NCBI GenBank assembly: GCA_000341795.1
Contig: AODO01000073.1
Coordinates: 1 to 64,000, forward strand
Direction: 5' to 3'
Length of the DNA stretch: 64,000 bases
DNA from: Rhodococcus triatomae BKS 15-14
GTDB taxonomy: Bacteria; Actinomycetota; Actinomycetes; Mycobacteriales; Mycobacteriaceae
Each line of letters starts with the position of its first letter. Position 1 is the first letter of the stretch. A program made the translations under genes and the position numbers. The notes beneath the pieces are model-generated. The model was not told where the DNA came from. It searched no databases and worked only from the letters and a program-made list of their open reading frames with translations. This document shows, one piece after another, positions 11,058-50,340 of the stretch.

Positions 11058-12230
11058 ATGTCGACCACGCACGACGCCTCCACGACCGGACTCCCCGACG
11101 AGCTCACCCGGCGTGCACTGCGGCACGTTCTCGACGGCACGACCGACATGGCGCCCTCGCCGTTGAAGGTGCCGCTGCACTACTACCGCGACCCGAAGAT
11201 CCACGAGGTCGAGGAGAAGCAGATCCTGAGGCGCACCCCGCTGGCGATCGTGCCGAGCGCGCAGATCCCGAAGCCCGACGACTACGTGGTCCGCAGTGTG
11301 CTCGGCGACTCGTTGCTCGTCACCCGGGACAGCGCGGGCACCGCGCACGTCCTGCTCAACTACTGCCGTCACCGCGGCGCCATGCCCGCGTGCGGGTCGG
11401 GCAGCGCCCGCCGATTCACCTGCCCGTACCACGCGTGGACGTACAAGAACACGGGCGAGCTGGCGGGCGTACCCGGCAAGGAGGGCTTCGACGGCATGAA
11501 CCGTGCCGAGTACGGGCTCGTGGAACTGCCCAGTGAGGAGAAGTACGGCTTCGTGTGGGCGGTGCTGACCGACGGCGAGACGATCGACGTCGACGCTCAC
11601 CTCGGCGACATGGGACCCGAACTCGCGCAATTCGACTACGCCTCGTACGGATACCACGACCAGCGCGAGTTCGTCTCCGAGGTGAGCTGGAAGGGAGCAC
11701 TCGAGGCGTTCGCCGAGAGCTACCACTTCCCGTTCGTCCACGGGGAGAGCGTCATCGGGCAGAACACCGTCGCCAACACCTCCATCCACGACACCTTCGG
11801 ACGCCATCACCGGATGGGCTTCCCGTTCAACTGGGTCACCGCCCTCGACGAGAATCCCGACGGCGACTGGGATCCCGTCGCCAACATGGGCGTCATCTAC
11901 TGGATCTACCCGAATCTCGTTCTCGCGAACAGTCCGGTGGGTGTCGAGGTGCTCGACATGCTGCCGGCGGGGTCGCCGACCTCGTGCACCCTGCGGCACA
12001 GCTGGATGGCGAAGTACCCGGCGACCACCGACGAACAGCGCGAGCTGTACGACACCGTGTTCGCACAGGTGCACGGCGCGGTACGGGACGAGGACTTCGC
12101 GATGCTTCCGCAGTGCGGCGAGGGCGTCCGACGCGGCCAGCACGACCACATGATCATCGGCCGCAACGAGATCGGCGTGCAGCACATGATCACGACCTTC
12201 GCCACCGAACTGGGCATCGCCCTCGCGTGA
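11058..12230 (+). CDS. Rieske non-haem iron oxygenase, large (alpha) subunit type
   Basis: The 390-residue protein carries a Rieske [2Fe-2S] site C103-x-H105 ... C122-x2-H125 (NYCRHRGAMP and FTCPYHAW). The mononuclear iron site includes H223 and H228 in ESYHFPFVHGE, with the third carboxylate expected further on. This is the layout of ring-hydroxylating dioxygenase alpha subunits and related mono-oxygenases or demethylases. No beta subunit, ferredoxin or reductase gene is adjacent, so electrons must come from elsewhere. The following nitroreductase-like gene starts 20 bp downstream, so the two probably form an operon under the divergent TetR. The substrate cannot be read from the sequence. 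Confidence 0.9.
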   Translation: MSTTHDASTTGLPDELTRRALRHVLDGTTDMAPSPLKVPLHYYRDPKIHEVEEKQILRRTPLAIVPSAQIPKPDDYVVRSVLGDSLLVTRDSAGTAHVLLNYCRHRGAMPACGSGSARRFTCPYHAWTYKNTGELAGVPGKEGFDGMNRAEYGLVELPSEEKYGFVWAVLTDGETIDVDAHLGDMGPELAQFDYASYGYHDQREFVSEVSWKGALEAFAESYHFPFVHGESVIGQNTVANTSIHDTFGRHHRMGFPFNWVTALDENPDGDWDPVANMGVIYWIYPNLVLANSPVGVEVLDMLPAGSPTSCTLRHSWMAKYPATTDEQRELYDTVFAQVHGAVRDEDFAMLPQCGEGVRRGQHDHMIIGRNEIGVQHMITTFATELGIALA

Positions 12231-12250
12231 CACCACACCAGGAGACTCCC

Positions 12251-12766
12251 GTGACCAACCGGACGCCGCCGCGGCCCCGTCAACTCGATTCCCCGGTCCT
12301 GCCGACGATCTTCAAACACGTCGGGAGGTGCCAGGTCTGGCTCTACCGCCGCACCGGAGGACGGGTCGGGGGAAAGTGGCGCATCGGGGCCGGGTTCCGC
12401 AAACCCGTGCCGACGCTGCTCCTCGAGCACCGGGGCCGCAGGTCGGCCACCCTGTACACGACCCCGCTGCTGTACATCGAGGACGGGGACGACGTGATCG
12501 TGGTCGCCTCGCAGGGCGGCCTGCCGAAGCATCCGCAGTGGTATCGCAACCTGTGCGCCGACCCGGACACCCGGATCCAGATCGGCAGTCGTATCCGCGA
12601 GGTCACCGCGGAGACCGCCGACCCCGCCCGGCGCGCCCGACTGTGGCCGCTGCTCGTCGACGCCTACGCGGACTTCGACACCTACCAGGCGTGGACGGAG
12701 CGGGAGATCCCCGTGGTCGTCCTACGGCCGCGCTCCCCCGAACGGCCGGGCGGCGCCGCTGCCTAG
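12251..12766 (+). CDS. Deazaflavin (F420)-dependent nitroreductase family protein
   Basis: The 171-residue protein matches the Ddn-type family: an N-terminal amphipathic/basic part (WLYRRTGGRVGGK), then TLLLEHRGRRSATLYTTPLL, GLPKHPQWYRNL and the closing EREIPVVVLRP. These split-barrel enzymes bind F420H2 at the inner membrane face and reduce quinones or nitro compounds. GTG at 12251 has AGGAG seven bases upstream. It follows the Rieske oxygenase by 20 bp, suggesting joint expression, perhaps as a reductive partner in one degradation route (inference). Confidence 0.88.
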   Translation: MTNRTPPRPRQLDSPVLPTIFKHVGRCQVWLYRRTGGRVGGKWRIGAGFRKPVPTLLLEHRGRRSATLYTTPLLYIEDGDDVIVVASQGGLPKHPQWYRNLCADPDTRIQIGSRIREVTAETADPARRARLWPLLVDAYADFDTYQAWTEREIPVVVLRPRSPERPGGAAA

Positions 12767-41243: not shown

Positions 41244-41861
41244 TCAGGCGTAGTCGCCGAGCACCAGCCTCGTCACGTCCTGGACGTTGCGGAGCGCCTC
41301 CGGAAACCCGATCCGCCCGGTGCTCCACAGCACGAGCGAGTTCAGCATCGTGCTGCCGATCGAGAGGGAGGCGAGCCGCGCACGTTCGGCGGGTACACCG
41401 TCCATCAGGTCGAACAGTGCCGTCCGGTTGGCGGCCGAACGCTCGTCGAGGGTGTCCCGGACGTAGGGGTCGTCTGAGGTCTGCAGCTCGACTTCGAGCC
41501 GGGCGAAGTTCGGGCCGCGCTGAAACGCCTTCATCTGCCGGGTGTAGAGGTCGAGCACGCGGTCCAGCACCGATCCCGTGTGACCCCGCCCGCCCGTTGC
41601 GCGTTCCTCCGCCAGCCGTTCCGCGAGGATGTCGTTCCACGCCGCCATCGACGCCGCGAGCAGGTGCTGCTTCGCGGGAAAGTAGCGATACAGCGTGCCC
41701 AGCGCCACCCCGGAGCGCTCGGACACCTCCCGCATCTGAATCCCGTCGGGCCCGGTCTCGGCGAGCATCTCGATCACCGTCGTGGTGAGATGTTGCCGTC
41801 GACGACGCTGTGCGTCGGTCATGTCGTCGGGGCTCAGCGGCGCGGCAACGGGTTCGGTCAC
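41244..41861 (-). CDS. TetR family regulator, last gene of the catabolic operon
   Basis: The 205-residue protein has a TetR helix-turn-helix (about 25-70, MREVSERSGVALGTLYRYFPAKQHLL) and a helical ligand domain resembling KstR-like steroid and acyl-CoA responsive regulators in outline only. GTG at 41861 is nine bases after the SDR stop, so it is cotranscribed with the five enzyme genes. It is the natural candidate to bind the repeated elements at 47931-48031 upstream of the first gene. Confidence 0.88.
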   Translation of the reverse strand: MTEPVAAPLSPDDMTDAQRRRRQHLTTTVIEMLAETGPDGIQMREVSERSGVALGTLYRYFPAKQHLLAASMAAWNDILAERLAEERATGGRGHTGSVLDRVLDLYTRQMKAFQRGPNFARLEVELQTSDDPYVRDTLDERSAANRTALFDLMDGVPAERARLASLSIGSTMLNSLVLWSTGRIGFPEALRNVQDVTRLVLGDYA

Positions 41862-41870
41862 GAGGGCAGC

Positions 41871-42752
41871 CTAATCCCCTGTGGCGACGGCACTCGCGGC
41901 CCTCGACGACGGCTCCACCAGGTGCGCACCGAGGACCGCGTGCAGCTCGTCCTGGTCCCACCGCGACTGCGACCTCAGACTGGCCGCCACCGCCGGCGCG
42001 GTCATCACGTCGATCCGATCGCCGTACGCCACCAGGACCCGTCCGGTGACGTGTTCGGCGACCGGGGACGCGAGATAGACGACGAGCGGCGCAACGTGCT
42101 CGGCGGACAGCGGGTCCGTGCCGTCCGCCGGCGCGGGACCGAACACCCCGCCGGTCATCGCGGTCCGGGCTCGCGGGCAGATGGCGTTGGCGCGCAACCC
42201 GAACGACGCGCATCCCCGGGCCGTCGACATCGTCAATGCGACGACGCCTGCCTTGGATGCCGCATAGTTCGCGGCGCCCGGCGGACCGGACGCGTACGCC
42301 TCCGACGCCGTGTTGACGATGCGGGCGTAGACCGGTCCCCCCGACGCCTTCGCGAGCCGCCGCCAGTGATCGGTGGCGGCCCGAGTGGTGAGGAACGTAC
42401 CGCGGAGGTTGACCCGCACCACCTCGTCCCACTCGGCGGCGGACATGGTGAACACCATGCGATCCCGAATGATCCCCGCGTTGTTGACCAGGACGTCCAG
42501 GCGTCCGAACCGTTCGATCGCGAGTGCGACGAGTCGGTCCGCGGTCGCCTGCTCGCCGATGTCGCCGACGCAGGTCACCACCGATCCGCCGAGGCGGCGG
42601 ATCTCGTCGGCGACATCGTGCAGCCGCTCACCGCGCGCGTTGATCACGAGATCGGCCCCGGCCCGCGCGAGGGCGAGCGCCTCCGCCCGGCCGAGACCCT
42701 CGCTTGCTCCGGTGACGATCGCGGTCCGGCCGTGGAGTGGTCGCACCGTCAC
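41871..42752 (-). CDS. Short-chain dehydrogenase/reductase
   Basis: The 293-residue classical SDR has the NAD(P) motif TGASEGLG (about 14-21), NNAG (about 90-93), the catalytic Tyr-Lys in NYAASKAG, and NAICPRARTAM. It carries a C-terminal extension of roughly 40 residues beyond the normal SDR end (YGDRIDVMTAPAVAASLRSQ and beyond), similar to extensions in SDRs of acyl-CoA catabolism. GTG at 42752 overlaps the acyl-CoA dehydrogenase stop as GTGA. Probably oxidises a hydroxyacyl-CoA or alcohol intermediate (inference). Confidence 0.88.
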   Translation of the reverse strand: MTVRPLHGRTAIVTGASEGLGRAEALALARAGADLVINARGERLHDVADEIRRLGGSVVTCVGDIGEQATADRLVALAIERFGRLDVLVNNAGIIRDRMVFTMSAAEWDEVVRVNLRGTFLTTRAATDHWRRLAKASGGPVYARIVNTASEAYASGPPGAANYAASKAGVVALTMSTARGCASFGLRANAICPRARTAMTGGVFGPAPADGTDPLSAEHVAPLVVYLASPVAEHVTGRVLVAYGDRIDVMTAPAVAASLRSQSRWDQDELHAVLGAHLVEPSSRAASAVATGD

Positions 42753-44950
42753 CGCGCCTCCCGCGGCAGCCCGAGAATCTGCTCGGAGATGACGTTCAGC
42801 TGGATCTCCAGGGTGCCGCCGCCGATGAGCAGCGACGGCGTCGACAGATACGCCTTGGCCGCGCGCCCGCCGCCGGTCACCTCCGGGCCGAGACTCCCGA
42901 CAGCCGCCTCCGGTCCGAACCACTCGAGAACCTGCGCGGCGGCCTCGGTGATGTGCCGTGCCGACGCCGCTTTCAGAGCACTCGCCTCGACTCCCGGATC
43001 CAGGCCGGACAGTCGCTTGAGCACACCGCGATGCGCGAGCGCGTCCAGCGCGCCGGTGGTGGCGGTGATCCGGCCGAGCGCGGGCAGCGCGTCGTACCGG
43101 ACCGCCGCATCGAGGGAACGCGCCACCGCCGTGGGATCGAGACGGTGCCCGCCCGCGACCGGGGTGGCGCCCATGGCGACCCGCTCGTTGGCGAGTGTCG
43201 TGCGGGCCACCGTCCAGCCCTCCCCCGGCGCCCCCACCAGGTCGCCGTCCGGTACGAAGACACCGTCGAGAGCGACCTCGTTGAACATGCTGTCGCCGTT
43301 GGCTTCCCGCAACGGACGAACGTCGACGCCGGAGGCCGACATGTCGACGAGGAAGAAGCTGATCCCGCGGTGTCTGGGTGCGTCCCGATCGGTGCGCGCC
43401 AGGCAGATCCCCCAGTGCGCCTCGTGCGCCCTGGACGTCCACACCTTGCGGCCGTCGATCCGCCATCCACCGTCCACCTTGGTGGCGAACGTCGTCAGCG
43501 ACGCCAGGTCGGATCCGGCACCGGGCTCCGAGAACAGCTGGCACCAGACGATCTCTCCACGCAGGGTCGGTGGGACGAGGCGTGTCATCTGCTCCTCGGT
43601 GCCGTACCGGAGGATCGACGGCAGTGCCCACTCCCCGATCACCGTGCCGGGCTGCGTGATCCCGGCGCGCTCGAACTCCTCGGCGATGATCAGCTGGCCG
43701 GCCGTGTCCGCGCCCAGCCCGTACGGCTGCGGATAGTGCGGGGAGACGAGACCTCGGTCGGCGAACAACACCCGAGCGGCGGTCTCGTCCAGAGACCGGG
43801 CCTCCGAGAGTGTCGCCGCCACCGCGGCACGGAACTCGGGTCGATCCTCGAATCCGAGGGCCGCGTCCCGCGTCGTGGTCAGGGCCAGTTCACCGGCCCG
43901 CCTCGACCACGCGTCCTGCGAGCCGCCGAGCGCGAGCAGACTCACCACCCGCCGCCAGTACAGGTGGATGTCGTGTTCCCACGTGTTGCCGATTCCGCCG
44001 AGGATCGTCAGTGAGTCGAGGACGACGTCGACGGCCTCGCGGCGCACGACCGTCGCGGTGCGCGCCGCGGCGAGTTCGACCTGGGCGAGATCCCCACCGT
44101 CCGCCGCCGTCGCCGCATCCCACACCGCGCTGGTCATCACCTCGACGCGGATGAACAACTGTGCGCACTTGTGCTTCACCGCCTGGAACGAGCCGATCGG
44201 GCGACCGAACTGCTCCCGGATCCTGGCGTAGGCGAGGCTGGTTTCCTGAGCCCACCGGGCGACTCCGACGGCTTCCGCGCACTGCAGCACCACCGCGAGC
44301 GCGGCAACCTCCTCGGCGGTGGCCGCCAGGACGTGCTCGGCCGGCACCCGCACCTCCGACAGTCGCACCCGGCCGATGTCGCGGGTGAGGTCGACGCCCG
44401 GCTCACCGACGGTCTCGACGCCCGCGTCGCCCGCCGACACGACGAACCACACCACCTTCTCCCGGCACCGGCCCGCGAGGACGAGAACATCGGCGCCGAG
44501 TGCACCGAGCACCGACGCGGTCTCACCCGCCGCCACGACCTCGTCGCCGTCGCCGTCGAGGACGACGGTGCCGGGGTCGAGGGCGACCGCTCCGGTCCCT
44601 CCTGTGGCCAGCCCCGGCAGCAGAGCCTTGCGGGCCGCGTCCGTGCCGTGGGCCTGGACGACGGCACTCGCGATGACCGTCGGCAGCAGCGGGCCCGGCA
44701 GCAGTCCGTGGCCGGATCGTTCGAGCGCGACCGCGAGTTCGAGGACACCCGCGCCGGCGCCGTCGTACTCCTCGGCGAGATGCAGCGCGGGAATTCCCAT
44801 GTCCACCAGGCGGTTCCAGAATGCGGGCCGTTCGCCGCGTCCGAGGGACTCGAGCTGTCGGCGCGTCCGTTCCACGGGTGCCTCGCGGGTGGCGAGCCGC
44901 GCGATCGCGTCCGCGAGCGCATCGTGATCTGCTCCGATACCGATCGGCAT
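42749..44950 (-). CDS. Two-domain (fused) acyl-CoA dehydrogenase, FadE34-like size
   Basis: The 733-residue protein contains two acyl-CoA dehydrogenase folds in tandem. The first (about 1-345) is degenerate (LHLAEEYDGAGAGVLELAVALE). The second (about 360-733) has canonical FAD/substrate motifs: IVWCQLFSEPGAGSDLASL, GWRIDGRKVWTS and GGGTLEIQLNVISEQILGLP. Such fusions occur in steroid side-chain and bulky acyl-CoA degradation. It would introduce a double bond into a CoA-activated substrate. It is separated by six bases from the amidohydrolase upstream and overlaps the SDR downstream. Confidence 0.9.
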   Translation of the reverse strand: MPIGIGADHDALADAIARLATREAPVERTRRQLESLGRGERPAFWNRLVDMGIPALHLAEEYDGAGAGVLELAVALERSGHGLLPGPLLPTVIASAVVQAHGTDAARKALLPGLATGGTGAVALDPGTVVLDGDGDEVVAAGETASVLGALGADVLVLAGRCREKVVWFVVSAGDAGVETVGEPGVDLTRDIGRVRLSEVRVPAEHVLAATAEEVAALAVVLQCAEAVGVARWAQETSLAYARIREQFGRPIGSFQAVKHKCAQLFIRVEVMTSAVWDAATAADGGDLAQVELAAARTATVVRREAVDVVLDSLTILGGIGNTWEHDIHLYWRRVVSLLALGGSQDAWSRRAGELALTTTRDAALGFEDRPEFRAAVAATLSEARSLDETAARVLFADRGLVSPHYPQPYGLGADTAGQLIIAEEFERAGITQPGTVIGEWALPSILRYGTEEQMTRLVPPTLRGEIVWCQLFSEPGAGSDLASLTTFATKVDGGWRIDGRKVWTSRAHEAHWGICLARTDRDAPRHRGISFFLVDMSASGVDVRPLREANGDSMFNEVALDGVFVPDGDLVGAPGEGWTVARTTLANERVAMGATPVAGGHRLDPTAVARSLDAAVRYDALPALGRITATTGALDALAHRGVLKRLSGLDPGVEASALKAASARHITEAAAQVLEWFGPEAAVGSLGPEVTGGGRAAKAYLSTPSLLIGGGTLEIQLNVISEQILGLPREAR

Positions 44951-44956
44951 CTCCGA

Positions 44957-45823
44957 TCACCCTTTCAGTTTGAGCACCTTGCGGGCGTTCTCGTGCAGGA
45001 ACTTGGGCCACACCTCGTCCGTGAAGGGCACGTGCGGCATGTCGGTGAAGATCCGGTCGAGTGTCAGTCCGGCCGGGAAGTAACCCGCGTAGATGATCTT
45101 GTCCGCGCCGCGTGTGTTCGCGTAGTCGACGATGGCCCGCGGGTAGTGCTTGGGCGCGAACGCGGAGGTCGAGTAGTACAGATTCGGCCACTTGAGCATC
45201 AGCTTGACCGCCAGGTCCTGCCACGGCTCGCACCCGTGCCGGGTGACGAACACCAGATCCGGAAAGTCGAACATCACGTCGTCGATCAGTTCGACGTGCT
45301 GCACGGCGGACTTGAGCCGCGGTCCCGCGATCCCGGCGCACGCGAAGATCGGGATGTCCAGTTCGACGCACTTGGCGTAGATCGGATACATCTGCGGGGC
45401 GTTGAGCGCCACCTGCGGGAAGGTGCCCGCCGCAAACGAACTCACCGAGACGATGCCGAACTCCTCGTACTCGCGTGTCATCCGGGTCAGGGTTCCCATG
45501 ATGTCGTTGGGGTCGACCGCCGAACCCTGCGGAACGAACCGGTCGGGGAACATGCGGACCGCCCGCTGCCCGGACTCCTTGGCCATGCTGACCATGCCGA
45601 TCTCGATGCCGTGCTTGTCCATCTCGTGCAGGGTCACCGAGACCGGATCGTCGGTGGGGAGGTCGTTGGGCACGCCCGTGAACATGTACTGGGCGGGCAT
45701 GCTGTACTCGTCGCGGCTCTGACGGTCCTTGGTCTGCCGCGTGATGAACGCGTACTCGTCGTACCCCGCCTCACGGAACCCGATGTGCGTGTCGATGACG
45801 GGGATGCCGTCGTAGGGCGTCAT
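44957..45823 (-). CDS. Amidohydrolase-family (amidohydrolase_2) protein
   Basis: The 288-residue TIM-barrel protein of the metal-dependent amidohydrolase_2 group, like ACMSD/gamma-resorcylate decarboxylases. The start IPVIDTHIGFREAG has DTH instead of the usual DxHxH. FVTRHGCEPW supplies a central His, and ADKIIYAGYFPAG stands where the metal Asp motif (GSDxP) normally lies. Altered ligands suggest a non-canonical or non-metal chemistry. ATG at 45823 overlaps the preceding gene's stop (ATGA). Confidence 0.82.
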   Translation of the reverse strand: MTPYDGIPVIDTHIGFREAGYDEYAFITRQTKDRQSRDEYSMPAQYMFTGVPNDLPTDDPVSVTLHEMDKHGIEIGMVSMAKESGQRAVRMFPDRFVPQGSAVDPNDIMGTLTRMTREYEEFGIVSVSSFAAGTFPQVALNAPQMYPIYAKCVELDIPIFACAGIAGPRLKSAVQHVELIDDVMFDFPDLVFVTRHGCEPWQDLAVKLMLKWPNLYYSTSAFAPKHYPRAIVDYANTRGADKIIYAGYFPAGLTLDRIFTDMPHVPFTDEVWPKFLHENARKVLKLKG

Positions 45824-46680
45824 GCCTTCTGCTCCTTCATGATCGGCCTGCCGCGCAGGTCCCGGACGGTCAGCCCTTCACGTTCGAGAATGTCCAGGCT
45901 CGCCTCGATCCTGCCGGTGTGGTGGAGCGGCGTGGCGCACAGCCACGTCACCGCCTCGACCATCTCCTCGAGCGACTCCGGGACGAACCACGGCGAGCCG
46001 ACCATGGTCGATGCCACCGACAGCGCACCGGCGGTGGCGACGGCGGAGCGCGGACGCACCGCGTTGACACGAATTCCGGTGCCGTTCAGTTCGGCCGCCA
46101 GACCAGCCGTCATCCGGTCCTGTGCGGCCTTGCTCATGCCGTACAGGGCGGTGCCGTGGATGTCGGCGTCCAGGTCGGTCTCACCCTCGGGCAGCGGCTC
46201 GACCGGACGGATCCGGGCGGTGCCGCTGGTGACGTTGACGATCCAGCCCTCGCGGCGGTCGAGCATCCCCGGGATCACGCGTTGCGCGAGGTCCAGCGGA
46301 GCGTGCACGTTCACCTCGAACGTCAGGTGCGCGCGCGTGGACGGGTAGTCGCGCAGCGGCTGGAAGATCGCGGCCGCCGCGTTGTTGACGAGGATGTCGA
46401 CCGGTCCGCCCAGCACCTTCTCGGCCTCGGGGACGATCCGCGCACGGGAGTCGGGATCCTCCAGGGCCGCGGGGACGATCGCGGCGGTGCCCCCGGAGGC
46501 GCGGATCGCCTCGGCGGTCGCGGCGAGGGTGCCCTCGAACCCGCGGTCCGGTTCGTCCACCGTGCGCGCGACGATCGCGACCGCGGCCCCCTCCGCCGCG
46601 AGCCTGCGGGCGATCGCGGCCCCGATGCCACGGCTCGCGCCGGTGACGATCGCCCGGCGCCCCTGGAACCGGCGCGTCAC
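45820..46680 (-). CDS. Short-chain dehydrogenase/reductase
   Basis: The 286-residue classical SDR has TGASRGIG (about 13-20), NNAAAAIF, the catalytic pair in LYGMSKAAQDRM, and IRVNAVRPRSAVATAG. It has a C-terminal end (EREGLTVRDLRGRPIM) resembling SDRs of acyl-CoA degradation islands. GTG at 46680 overlaps the first amidohydrolase stop as GTGA and its own stop overlaps the next gene. The second SDR of the operon; distinct from the one at 41871. Confidence 0.88.
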   Translation of the reverse strand: MTRRFQGRRAIVTGASRGIGAAIARRLAAEGAAVAIVARTVDEPDRGFEGTLAATAEAIRASGGTAAIVPAALEDPDSRARIVPEAEKVLGGPVDILVNNAAAAIFQPLRDYPSTRAHLTFEVNVHAPLDLAQRVIPGMLDRREGWIVNVTSGTARIRPVEPLPEGETDLDADIHGTALYGMSKAAQDRMTAGLAAELNGTGIRVNAVRPRSAVATAGALSVASTMVGSPWFVPESLEEMVEAVTWLCATPLHHTGRIEASLDILEREGLTVRDLRGRPIMKEQKA

Positions 46681-47912
46681 GCGCTCAGCTCTGCCTCGAG
46701 CTGCAGGGCGAAGGACTCCCGCAACAGCACGTCGTTGGGGTTCTCCGGCAGCTCGGTGAGCGGGCGCGCGACCTCGGACGGGGTGGGGCCGTACTTCACG
46801 GCGAGCGGAGCCAGCGCGTCGAGGTCGAAGTCGTAGAGTTCGGCCGCGTTCTCCGCGAACAGCTTCCGCAGCTCCGTCTCCTCGACGTCGTGCATGACCT
46901 GGCGGATGCACTCGCGAGTGAACGGGTACGTGCCCTCGTTGTGCGGGTAGTCGCTCCCCCACATGAACTTGCCCTCGCCGAGGGTGTCGCGCGACGCCAT
47001 GTCCTGTGCCGACGGCATCGTGGCGCCGACCCACACGTTGCGGCGGAAGTACTCGCTCGGACGCAGCGGCAACTGTTCGTCCTCGCTGTAGAACAGCTCG
47101 CCGATCCTTCCGGTGCGCTTGACGCGCAGGTCGACCGTGTCGAGTTGACGCATGAGGTCCGGAGCCCAGGCGCAACCCTGCTCCGAGACGGCGAACTTGA
47201 GCTTCGGGAACCGCTCGAAGACACCCGAGAGGATCATCTGCACCAGCGGGCGCATCGAGTAGAAGCCCACCTCGTTGATGTAGAGCATCGAGGCCGTCCG
47301 GTAGCGACCGTAGTCCGGCAGACCGGTGCCCGCATGACTGTTCACCGGCACTCCGAGGTCTTCGCAGACCTCCCACAAGCGGTCGTACCCGGGGTCGTAC
47401 AGCGGCTTCACCCACTTGACGTCGGGCGCGAGGTTGGGCAGCAGGATGCCGCCGCGCAGCCCGTTCTCCTTGACCCACGTCACGTCCGCGACGGCCTCGT
47501 CGACGTCGTTGAGGAAGATCTGCGCGACACCTGCGCGCTGCGCGGGGGCGTCGCTGCAGAAGTCCTTCAGCCACCGGTTGTGGGCGCGGATACCTGCCAG
47601 GCGCTTCTCGAAGTCCTCGCCGCGCGGCGGGCCGGCGAGCACCGCGGCGCTCGGAAAGAACGGCGGCACCGTGTTCGGGAAGAGCACCTCACCGACCGTG
47701 CCGTCCTGACGAGTCTCCGTGATGCGGCGCTCGTTGTCCCAGTTGCGAGTTCGGCCGTCGTCGACCAGGTCGCGATAGGGGTTCTTGTACCTGCCGCGCC
47801 ACGCGTCGAACTCCTCGTGCCACGTGGATTCGAGGTACTCGCGATAGGTGGCGTGGTCGGCGCCGGCGTGACTGTCGGCAGAGATGAGGATGTACGGGCT
47901 CTCGTTCGTCAT
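46677..47912 (-). CDS. Amidohydrolase-family protein, first gene of the catabolic operon
   Basis: The 411-residue protein of the amidohydrolase_2 type begins with ISADSHAGADHATYREYL (DSH instead of DxHxH). It has VPVNSHAGTGLPDYG, KFAVSEQGCAWAPDL and a canonical-looking GKFMWGSDYPHNEGTYP with the metal-type Asp. Related proteins decarboxylate or hydrolyse aromatic and carboxylic substrates. ATG at 47912 has GGAGAG ten bases before it. It is followed without gaps by the other five genes; two repeated elements stand upstream. Confidence 0.87.
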   Translation of the reverse strand: MTNESPYILISADSHAGADHATYREYLESTWHEEFDAWRGRYKNPYRDLVDDGRTRNWDNERRITETRQDGTVGEVLFPNTVPPFFPSAAVLAGPPRGEDFEKRLAGIRAHNRWLKDFCSDAPAQRAGVAQIFLNDVDEAVADVTWVKENGLRGGILLPNLAPDVKWVKPLYDPGYDRLWEVCEDLGVPVNSHAGTGLPDYGRYRTASMLYINEVGFYSMRPLVQMILSGVFERFPKLKFAVSEQGCAWAPDLMRQLDTVDLRVKRTGRIGELFYSEDEQLPLRPSEYFRRNVWVGATMPSAQDMASRDTLGEGKFMWGSDYPHNEGTYPFTRECIRQVMHDVEETELRKLFAENAAELYDFDLDALAPLAVKYGPTPSEVARPLTELPENPNDVLLRESFALQLEAELSA

Positions 47913-47930: not shown

Positions 47931-48031
47931 CAACACAAAATGAAACCGTGTTCTATTTCTTCTCCTCGAGAGTATCGCGCATAGCCCGCTTGTCAAGGCC
48001 GAGTCTCGAACACAACTAGAACCGTGTTCCA
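47931..48031 (-). promoter_or_regulatory. Two repeated operator-like elements upstream of the catabolic operon
   Basis: Two copies of AACACAA-n4/5-AACCGTGTTC (plus-strand reading) lie at 47932-47953 and 48009-48029, spaced about 77 bp. The second contains the perfect palindrome GAACCGTGTTC. They stand 19 and about 97 bp before the start of the first amidohydrolase gene, where a repressor site would act. The likely binder is the operon's own TetR. The centre (n3) differs by one base from the KstR consensus (n2). Confidence 0.55.
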
Positions 48032-48109: not shown

Positions 48110-49333
48110 CTACTGCGCCGTCGTCGCGAACCCGGACGCGAATGCGTGGATGCTGGCGACCACGTGATCGAGTTCCTCGTCACTCATGCCGTGGCTCATA
48201 CCGAGCGACATGCCCCGCTCGAACACCTCGTCGGCGTTGGGCAGACCGCCCTCGGGAACGCGATACTCGACGTTCCGCATCATCGGATGGCGAGTGACGT
48301 TGCCGCTCCACACCGTTCGGGTGTCGATCCCGGCCCCCTCGAGCGACTCCTGCAGATCCGATCGATCGAAGCCGGCGCCCTCACGGATCGTCACCGGGTA
48401 ACACAACCACGCGGTGTGGAAGCCCTCCAGCGGCTTGGGCAGGCGGAACAGGTCCGGATAGGCACCGAAGGCAGCGCTGAAGGCATCGAAGATCTCGTGA
48501 CGGCGCTTGTAGTTGACCTCGAGCTTGCTCAGCTGCACCAGACCGAAGGCCGAACCCAACTCCGACGGTTCGAAGTTCCACGGCAGCACGTCGAAGATGA
48601 AGTCGTTGTCGTAGGCGACGCCGTCGAGTTCCTCGCGGAAGACCTGGCCGGTCCTCGCCTGCTCGGACCCGAAGAGGTGCGGCTCGGAACGGCGACCCCA
48701 GCGGCGCAGCATCAGACCCCTGTCACGCAGCTTCTCGTCGTCGAGGCACACCATGCCACCGTTCCCCGCGGCCGTGATGATGTGCGACATCGCGAAGCTG
48801 GTCACCGTGATGTCCGAGCGGGAGCCGGTCCTCGTACCACGCAGGGTCGTTCCGATGCAGTCACACGAGTCCTCGATCACCTTCAGGTCGTGCCGGTCGG
48901 CGATCGCCCGGATGACATCCCAGTCCGGGGCGTTTCCGGCGAGGTTCGGAACCAGGATCGCCTTGGTCCTGTCGGTGATCAGCTCCTCGATCTTCGAGGT
49001 GTCGACGTTGTAGGTGTCGGGCTCGACATCGACGAACACCGGAACCCACCCCCCGCGCACGATCGGCGAGACATCCGTGGAGAACGTGAGCGGCGAGGTG
49101 ATGACCTCGGACCCCTTCGGCAGATCCAGCAGCTCGAGCGCCAGGTACAGCGCGGACGAGCCCGAATTGCACATCAGGCCCAGTTTCTTGCCGTACAGGT
49201 CGGCTACCCGCCGCTCCATCTCGGCGACGTTCTTGCCGATCTTGAGCGCGAACGGGCCACCGCGCAGAACCTCGAGGCACGCCTCGATCTCACGCTCGTC
49301 GTGCACACTGCGGGCATAGACAACCCTGGTCAT
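48110..49333 (-). CDS. DegT/DnrJ/EryC1 family PLP enzyme, ColD-like sugar 3-dehydratase type
   Basis: The 407-residue sugar aminotransferase-fold enzyme has CNSGSSALYLAL, VFVDVEPDTYNVD and the PLP Asp region EDSCDCIGTTL. At the usual PLP-lysine position it has His184 (SFAMSHIITAAGNGG). Lys-to-His is the mark of ColD and E1-type dehydratases that remove a sugar hydroxyl. The [2Fe-2S] cysteines of E1/RfbH are absent after RRWGRR, so ColD-like chemistry is favoured. No other deoxysugar genes are adjacent. ATG at 49333 has GAGGAG seven bases upstream. A TTTGAA-n6-TTCAAT site upstream suggests control by the divergent TetR. Confidence 0.85.
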   Translation of the reverse strand: MTRVVYARSVHDEREIEACLEVLRGGPFALKIGKNVAEMERRVADLYGKKLGLMCNSGSSALYLALELLDLPKGSEVITSPLTFSTDVSPIVRGGWVPVFVDVEPDTYNVDTSKIEELITDRTKAILVPNLAGNAPDWDVIRAIADRHDLKVIEDSCDCIGTTLRGTRTGSRSDITVTSFAMSHIITAAGNGGMVCLDDEKLRDRGLMLRRWGRRSEPHLFGSEQARTGQVFREELDGVAYDNDFIFDVLPWNFEPSELGSAFGLVQLSKLEVNYKRRHEIFDAFSAAFGAYPDLFRLPKPLEGFHTAWLCYPVTIREGAGFDRSDLQESLEGAGIDTRTVWSGNVTRHPMMRNVEYRVPEGGLPNADEVFERGMSLGMSHGMSDEELDHVVASIHAFASGFATTAQ

Positions 49334-49689: not shown

Positions 49690-49709
49690 GTTTGAATGAT
49701 CGTTCAAAC
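49690..49709. promoter_or_regulatory. Candidate TetR auto-operator covering the TetR start codon
   Basis: GTTTGAATGATCGTTCAAAC is a 20-bp palindrome with one mismatch pair, and the TetR ATG (49696) lies inside it. A bound repressor would block initiation of a short-leader or leaderless transcript. It shares TTTGAA-n6-TTCAAW with 49516-49533. Confidence 0.65.
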
Positions 49710-50340
49710 GGAACGGGCCGGGGCGCACGGGAACCAGGACCGCAAGTCGGAGATCCTCGGCGCCGCCGCCACCGCGTTCGCGGCGGGCAGCATCGCGGGC
49801 ACCTCGATGCGCGAGATCGGCGACGCGGTCGGGCTGAACGCCGGCGCGCTCTACCACTACTTCCGGTCGAAGAACGCCATCGTCAACGAGTTGGTCACCG
49901 GATACCTGTCCGAACTACTCGCCGACTACCGTTCGACGAACCTCGACGACCTCGCACCGCGTGACAGGCTGAAGGCGATCGTGGACGTCTCGCTCGCCAC
50001 CGGCGCCGCACGACCCGACGCGACGAAGGTGTACCACGCGGAGTTCGCCAACCTGCGCAACCTCCGTGACTACGCCGAGGCCCGCCGACTCGCCGACTCG
50101 ATCCAGACCATCTGGCTGGAGGCGATCGACGCGGGCAAGGACGCCGGTGTCCTCCGGAAGGACGTTCCCTCCAAGGTCTTCCACCGGTTCCTGCGCGACT
50201 CCGTGTGGTTCAGCGTGTACTGGCGCAAACCCGACGACCCGTACACCCTCGAGGAACTCTCCGAGGACTGCCTGGCGGTGTTCCTGGACGGCATGGCCCT
50301 GCGACCCGCCGACGCGCACGCCCCCGATCCCGATCGGTGA
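49696..50340 (+). CDS. TetR family regulator divergent from the DegT-family gene
   Basis: The 214-residue protein has a TetR DNA-binding domain (about 15-65, TSMREIGDAVGLNAGALYHYFRSKNAIV) and a helical C-terminal domain resembling KstR2/FadR-like actinobacterial TetRs in outline. ATG at 49696 is the only start before the conserved helix and lies within its own palindromic operator; no ribosome site is evident, so translation may be leaderless. It likely controls itself and the DegT-family gene. Confidence 0.88.
   Translation: MIVQTERAGAHGNQDRKSEILGAAATAFAAGSIAGTSMREIGDAVGLNAGALYHYFRSKNAIVNELVTGYLSELLADYRSTNLDDLAPRDRLKAIVDVSLATGAARPDATKVYHAEFANLRNLRDYAEARRLADSIQTIWLEAIDAGKDAGVLRKDVPSKVFHRFLRDSVWFSVYWRKPDDPYTLEELSEDCLAVFLDGMALRPADAHAPDPDR

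Follow-up and report, generated by a model that had tools for sequence, protein, structure and literature searches.

A candidate third module for steroid-type acyl-CoA oxidation in Rhodococcus triatomae BKS 15-14, with a predicted dinuclear oxygenase and a metal-less amidohydrolase-fold protein

Six minus-strand genes span positions 41244–47912 of the 64,000-nucleotide stretch analysed here (the window), which forms the start of contig C72 in the 5.82-Mb genome of Rhodococcus triatomae BKS 15-14. According to Pfam, they code for two Amidohydro_2 proteins (AH1 and AH2), two short-chain dehydrogenases (SDR1 and SDR2), one acyl-CoA dehydrogenase (ACAD) with repeated ACAD domains and one TetR regulator (Table 1). 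The junctions, in 5' to 3' direction of the operon, consist of two overlaps of 4 bp, a gap of 6 bp, a further overlap of 4 bp and a gap of 9 bp. From sequence, the six genes are regarded as one operon with predicted co-transcription. An earlier note on this DNA had described the same closely packed set, and its coordinates, families and spacing all agree with the present analysis, as does its remark that CoA ligase, thiolase and hydratase are missing: no such family was detected in the six proteins by Pfam or NCBIfam. No published description of this gene set was found in the literature searched.

Table 1 Operon genes, regulatory features and linked genes (positions in the window)
Feature	Position	Strand	Basis
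AH1, amidohydrolase-related dinuclear oxygenase (ARO) as judged by its ligands, PtmU3-like, 411 aa	46677-47912	-	Pfam, ligand alignment
SDR1, short-chain dehydrogenase, 286 aa	45820-46680	-	Pfam; YxxxK seen by eye
AH2, metal-less amidohydrolase-fold protein, 288 aa	44957-45823	-	Pfam, alignment
Fused two-unit ACAD, 733 aa; E715 in C-terminal half, R245 in N-terminal half	42749-44950	-	
SDR2, FabG-like short-chain dehydrogenase, 293 aa	41871-42752	-	Pfam, NCBIfam
KstR-like TetR regulator, 205 aa, last gene of the operon	41244-41861	-	
Operator-like site 1, TGGAACACGGTTCTA, upstream of the -35 element	48017-48031	-	
Promoter-like TTGACA-16-TACTCT between the two sites	47969-47996	-	by eye
Operator-like site 2, TAGAACACGGTTTCA, between the -10 element and the start codon	47941-47955	-	
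DegT-family pyridoxal phosphate (PLP) protein, linked, upstream of the operon	48110-49333	-	
Divergent TetR, travels with the DegT gene in Prescottella-type loci	49696-50340	+	

AH1 is a PF04909 protein with a triosephosphate isomerase (TIM) barrel. Six residues, namely D13 and H15 (β1), H193 (β5), E244 (β6) as well as D321 and H324 (β8), match the ligand list taken from the published description of AibH2 and are invariant in 62 out of 62 rows of an alignment comprising all AROs of the cluster except one truncated sequence; two further alignments (A3, 26 rows; A4, 39 rows) were assembled from hand-picked rows. An acidic residue two positions after the β8 histidine has been reported as a mark of binuclear centres; this residue is E326 in AH1, and is Glu in 57 and Asp in 5 of the 62 rows. 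The closest solved relatives are PtmU3, a diterpenoid β-hydroxylase which takes CoA-ligated substrates, and DitZ of Rhodococcus rhodochrous. AH1 resembles PtmU3 and AibH2 in fold, in the six ligands of AibH2 and in the Glu of PtmU3 type that follows DxxH, and resembles PtmU3 in its acyl-CoA context. It differs from both in being encoded in a catabolic operon together with a fused ACAD and a KstR-like TetR, and from PtmU3 in sequence (26 % identity over the aligned part) and in that its activity is predicted. Because its motifs are the ligand set of dinuclear oxygenases, AH1 is most likely an O2-using dinuclear oxygenase and not a hydrolase; its O2 chemistry, and the reaction it would catalyze, are modelled on PtmU3. 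About 90 % of AibH2-like oxygenases adjoin a small Rieske protein, a neighbourhood that is not strictly defining, and no small Rieske gene was found among the nine proteins scanned around the operon. A probable class thereby becomes available for some of the numerous PF04909 proteins named 'amidohydrolase'. A further PF04909 protein of the R. triatomae genome (G000:C4; L165:2996-8890), 25 % identical to AH1, keeps the six oxygenase ligands; it is neighboured by genes for an aldehyde dehydrogenase (ALDH), an SDR, a cytochrome P450, an F420-type reductase and a TetR, and an operator-like site, GAGAACTATGTTCTA, is located at the start of the ALDH gene.

AH2, on the other hand, has lost the metal motifs, as the earlier note had recognised for one of the two amidohydrolases. 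The β1 His is gone in 29 out of 39 aligned rows, and at the positions matched by eye to the β5 His and the β8 Asp neither residue is present in any of the 39, whereas H196 is invariant in all of them.

Each half of the fused ACAD corresponds to one chain of the heterodimeric ACAD 6wy8. In 46 aligned rows, the Glu of the C-terminal GGGTxEIQ motif and the Arg of the N-terminal REQFG motif are each conserved in all 46, and the Glu of the N-terminal TWEHD motif in 43 (Asp in 3). The enzyme thus displays the two fused ACAD units and the C-terminal catalytic Glu that characterize FadE34/CasC. CasC is described as consisting of two fused ACAD domains, of which only the C-terminal one has the catalytic Glu, and as acting on bile-acid CoA esters with full side chain (PMC8399759). 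A tree was calculated from 23 rows, i.e. the window, two paralogs from the same genome, 16 of the 45 operon ACADs and 4 of the 6 from outside loci with a protein of more than 600 aa. It separates 19 rows (window, 16 operon ACADs, L180 and L183, the latter two from genomes in which AH2 has no adjacent ARO) from 4 rows (the paralogs on contigs C1 and C73, L184 and L185) with 100/100 support, the root being the midpoint and two of the four rows opposite the operon clade standing on long branches. Accordingly placed outside FadE34/CasC in this tree, where the reference rows are the genome's own paralogs named by context and one of them is long-branched, the operon ACAD represents, by sequence, a sister clade of the fused FadE34/CasC-type enzymes, with 44–45 % identity to the two paralogs.

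In total, three fused ACADs were detected in the R. triatomae genome at 1e-60 (operon, C73:131389-133557 and C1:90471-92579), each located within 1.5 kb of one of the three most KstR-like TetRs of the genome. The KstR model NF033703 has 63 TetR matches in this genome, the best three being C1:92842 (339 bits), C73:135023 (124 bits) and the operon TetR (73.6 bits); C1:92842, the genome's own KstR, passes the cut-off of 280, and the operon TetR falls below it. In the C1 set, KstR and the fused ACAD are accompanied by an ACAD pair, a ChsH2-type protein, a lipid-transfer protein that exceeds its cut-off and a protein of 136 aa that has no Pfam match. The C73 set contains a steroid 3-ketoacyl-CoA thiolase (689 bits; NCBIfam cut-offs are 515 for the steroid thiolase, 750 for the steroid-24-oyl-CoA synthetase CasG and 450 for HsaA), the fused ACAD, a MaoC-type hydratase and a lipid-transfer protein that also exceeds its cut-off; a CasG-family ligase (958) is encoded on the same contig at C73:119698. 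The hydratases of both sets were confirmed by Pfam. On account of their gene content, the C1 and C73 sets are termed cholesterol-type and cholate-type, respectively. Next to a hydratase, the FadE34/CasC modules possess a lipid-transfer protein and, in the cholate type, a thiolase, whereas the operon has the ARO, AH2 and the SDRs. The earlier note had recognised no matching pathway; this stands in part, since the fused ACAD and the TetR are common to the C1 and C73 sets, but the oxygenase, AH2 and the two SDRs are not.

Relatives were obtained from an AH2 scan of named genomes, from which 80 of 386 were kept; L148 has no called AH2, leaving n = 79 for the census. Genes were called by a simple script, which can miss genes. 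The duplicates L067 and L068 (of L083 and L088) were omitted from the neighbour census, the motif counts and the 62-row alignment, and kept in the count of AH2-ACAD adjacency. Within four genes of AH2, an ARO was found in 57, a fused ACAD in 45 and a TetR in 50 of the 79 loci. For the 60 loci flanked by 5 kb on either side, the respective numbers are 44, 40 and 43; ARO or ACAD is present in 51 of them, the two together in 33, and both are absent from 9. AH2 and the ACAD are the most constant genes of the set: the ACAD directly follows AH2 in 44 out of 45 loci where both were called nearby, so that the neighbourhood survey proposed in the earlier note yielded an association exceeding chance. 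Gene order varies between Rhodococcus-type, mycobacterial plus Blastococcus, Streptacidiphilus and acidimicrobial loci, and the association has therefore outlived rearrangement. SDR1 and SDR2 are each missing in some relatives; AH2 directly follows AH1 in Rhodococcus sp. SMB37, and AH1, AH2, ACAD and TetR are consecutive, with no SDR, in Nocardia carnea-type loci. Overall, the distribution is patchy, with AH1 (1e-60) in 25 and AH2 (1e-40) in 22 of 201 family genomes, and no AH1 in any of the 5 further members of the genus that were sampled.

Among solved relatives with a name, KstR is the best match of the operon TetR (2e-14). KstR responds to steroid acyl-CoA (PMC6678751). Two sites of type TAGAACNNNGTTCTA, each with one or two departures from the palindrome and with centres 76 bp apart, flank the promoter-like sequence of the operon. 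A site between promoter and start is present in 11 out of 12 upstream regions, window included (L081 lacks it, and that of L089 has a departure in the core). The motif was drawn from these 12 regions, 11 of which are within the 79 loci. When sites up to 250 bp upstream of a gene for AH2, an ARO, an ACAD or a TetR are counted, the exact form, TAGAACNNNGTTYYA, occurs in 43 of the 79 loci (9 of the 11 motif-defining loci and 34 of the 68 others; reversed control, 0), and with one mismatch in 52 (reversed control, 1). Over all 1.44 Mb of loci, 53 exact sites contrast with none for the reversed control. Ten whole genomes yielded 6 exact matches in 5 genomes, all at the operon promoter (control, 3); the exact motif is absent from the five whole genomes which have AH2 but no adjacent ARO. 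Since a looser pattern matched both operon sites and 4 further places in the R. triatomae genome (control, 0), a small regulon beyond the operon may exist. Repression by the TetR at the putative operators is suggested by this arrangement.

Several relatives carry steroid genes beside the set. CasG was found there in Nocardia carnea (849), Rhodococcus sp. SMB37 (867), N. vermiculata (852), G017 (814) and the Prescottella-type (genus g10) genomes G091 (856) and G182 (855), and the steroid thiolase in N. carnea (597), Rhodococcus sp. SMB37 (608) and N. vermiculata (596). In G091, a KshA relative (4qdf, 2e-186) lies between the TetR and the CasG-family ligase. L074, with a 44 % relative of AH1, places it among genes for HsaA (453.6) and for HsaD-like, HsaC-like and ketosteroid-dehydrogenase-like proteins, the latter three all below cut-off. 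The CasG family is present in 19 of 22 AH2 genomes versus 57 of 179 others (Fisher 1e-6; kinship uncontrolled) and within 9 kb of AH2 in 6 of the 22, counts for which genome lists and positions were transcribed by hand and contigs outside the position table compared by eye. The characterized cholate (cas) cluster of Rhodococcus jostii RHA1 resembles these relatives in the CasG-type ligase, steroid thiolase and KshA near the set; its hydratase CasD is without counterpart in the operon. The available part of a cholate review contains no occurrence of 'amidohydrolase'. The bile-salt side-chain cluster bsd I of Caenibius tardaugens likewise combines a TetR, an amidohydrolase, a monooxygenase without assigned role and an ACAD, but there the ACAD has two subunits (PMC12882949); on this description, the cluster is a possible parallel. 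Also among the nearest known systems is the uncharacterised BB4693 (3irs), at 22 % identity.

The substrate, not recognised in the earlier note, can thus be narrowed to a probable steroid-type acyl-CoA on the basis of the FadE34/CasC-type ACAD, the KstR-like regulator and the steroid genes by which the set is accompanied in several relatives. With a probability of about 0.6, the operon constitutes, in addition to the cholesterol-type and cholate-type modules, a third, paralogous one under a KstR-like regulator, directed at an acyl-CoA of steroid (or similar polycyclic) type, with the ARO, AH2 and the SDRs replacing hydratase, thiolase or lipid-transfer genes. Two observations weigh against it: no steroid genes were found beside the operon in R. 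triatomae itself, where CasG is on other contigs, and the CasG-like ligases adjoining the set (814–867) reach lower scores than the best members of the family (up to 1024; the two of R. triatomae, 981 and 958), so that they may activate an acid other than a C24 steroid acid. Substrate and reaction order are those suggested by kinship and gene content. The TetR would repress the operon from the two promoter-flanking operators and be released by an acyl-CoA intermediate. The fused ACAD, judged by its kinship to FadE34/CasC, would dehydrogenate the CoA-bound side chain, and AH1 would hydroxylate the CoA-tethered substrate with O2 at a dinuclear metal site, predicted from ligand conservation. The SDRs would oxidize the resulting alcohol(s) to ketone(s). 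AH2 might act on the ACAD product or a later product as hydratase, aldolase or hydrolase, which is the weakest step. Genes outside the operon, adjoining it in several relatives, would supply both the CasG-like ligase for activation and the thiolysis. The CoA-linked oxidation of a bulky acid and the dependence on another route proposed in the earlier note are both retained in this scheme. The hydratase acting after FadE34 is as yet unknown (PMC6678751), and for Sphingobium Chol11, hydratase, aldolase and thiolase are listed as absent for side-chain degradation (PMC8399759). A compact, separately regulated actinobacterial set with a fused steroid-type ACAD, a predicted dinuclear TIM-barrel oxygenase and a metal-less amidohydrolase therefore offers concrete genes for testing alternative chemistry at the missing side-chain steps.

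One variant of the third-module interpretation may be put forward tentatively, namely that the set dispenses with the usual hydratase in shortening the side chain of steroid acyl-CoAs or opening one of their rings. Either AH1 would place the β-hydroxyl directly with O2, or AH2 would be a metal-free amidohydrolase-fold enoyl-CoA hydratase or aldolase in the place of the hydratase beside the fused ACAD; if true, the latter would be unprecedented. On ~14 kb of G017, a genome without ARO match at 1e-20, AH2 is encoded together with SDRs, a thiolase, a CasG-family ligase and a fused ACAD belonging to the operon clade, and among the scanned genes hydration is the step without recognised gene.

It is rather unlikely that the same enzymes serve a non-steroid polycyclic acid, such as a diterpenoid (resin acid) or triterpenoid acyl-CoA which AH1 would hydroxylate beside a quaternary carbon prior to retro-aldol ring cleavage. 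PtmU3 reportedly hydroxylates next to a quaternary carbon, and PtmU3 and DitZ, the closest solved relatives of AH1, as well as the scores of the adjacent ligases, above cut-off but lower than the best of the family, would fit such a substrate. The same applies to Nocardia loci (L065:15061-16281, L066:14005-15991) in which the set is followed by a second ARO, 28 % identical to AH1 and with the six ligands kept, directly preceding a class II aldolase and then a thiolase, an SDR and a CasG-like ligase; ARO and aldolase represent a candidate pairing of hydroxylation and retro-aldol cleavage. This is countered by the steroid genes next to the set in relatives (KshA, steroid thiolase, CasG-family ligase) and, in the R. 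triatomae genome, by the fused ACADs being paired with KstR-like TetRs.

Improbable is a heteromeric oxygenase of AH1 and AH2 modelled on the known pair AibH2-AibH1, with AH2 as non-catalytic subunit, even though AROs stay within four genes of AH2 in most loci, some of them being only ~23 % identical to AH1. The mononuclear metal site expected of an AibH1-like auxiliary subunit, and retained in AibH1, is lost in AH2 (39 of 39 rows), and the constant neighbour of AH2 is the ACAD. Moreover, AH2 lacks an adjacent ARO in five of the genomes. At 1e-20, no ARO match was obtained in two of them, G017 (a complete single-contig genome) and G093 (81 % complete); G164 yielded one weaker match (3e-24), and in G060 and G184 AROs are located elsewhere in the genome. 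Because AH2 occurs in genomes without detected ARO, it is unlikely to be an obligate oxygenase subunit. The hydrolytic or decarboxylative cleavage which the earlier note had assigned to both amidohydrolases, acting for instance on an aromatic or conjugated acid, is very improbable despite the Pfam assignment of both to Amidohydro_2 and the same fold in LigW and dihydroxybenzoate decarboxylases, as LigW has His at β6 and no DxxH, whereas AH1 carries the oxygenase set of Glu at β6 and DxxH plus acidic residue at β8, and AH2 is without metal site.

Upstream of the operon, the DegT protein is closest to CDP-6-deoxy-4-hexulose-3-dehydrase E1 (3bcx, 5e-59), and His replaces the usual Lys in 16 out of 16 rows (window included) from Prescottella-type and acidimicrobial loci. 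A DegT gene is near AH2 in 15 of the 79 loci; together with the divergent TetR it is present in most Prescottella-type loci looked at, L062 lacking both. Elsewhere in the window (11058-12766), a gene for a Rieske ring-hydroxylating oxygenase, whose product has no NCBIfam match at 1e-60, has a TetR-like gene upstream and precedes a gene of the F420H2-dependent reductase family. The acidimicrobial loci L140-L155, from metagenome-assembled genomes, show the order ARO, AH2, F420H2-dependent quinone-reductase family protein and DegT; the F420-family protein comes after AH2 in 13 loci and may serve as electron donor. In 22 mostly mycobacterial loci (L120:14297-14581 and relatives), the ARO is followed by a 94-aa protein without Pfam match.

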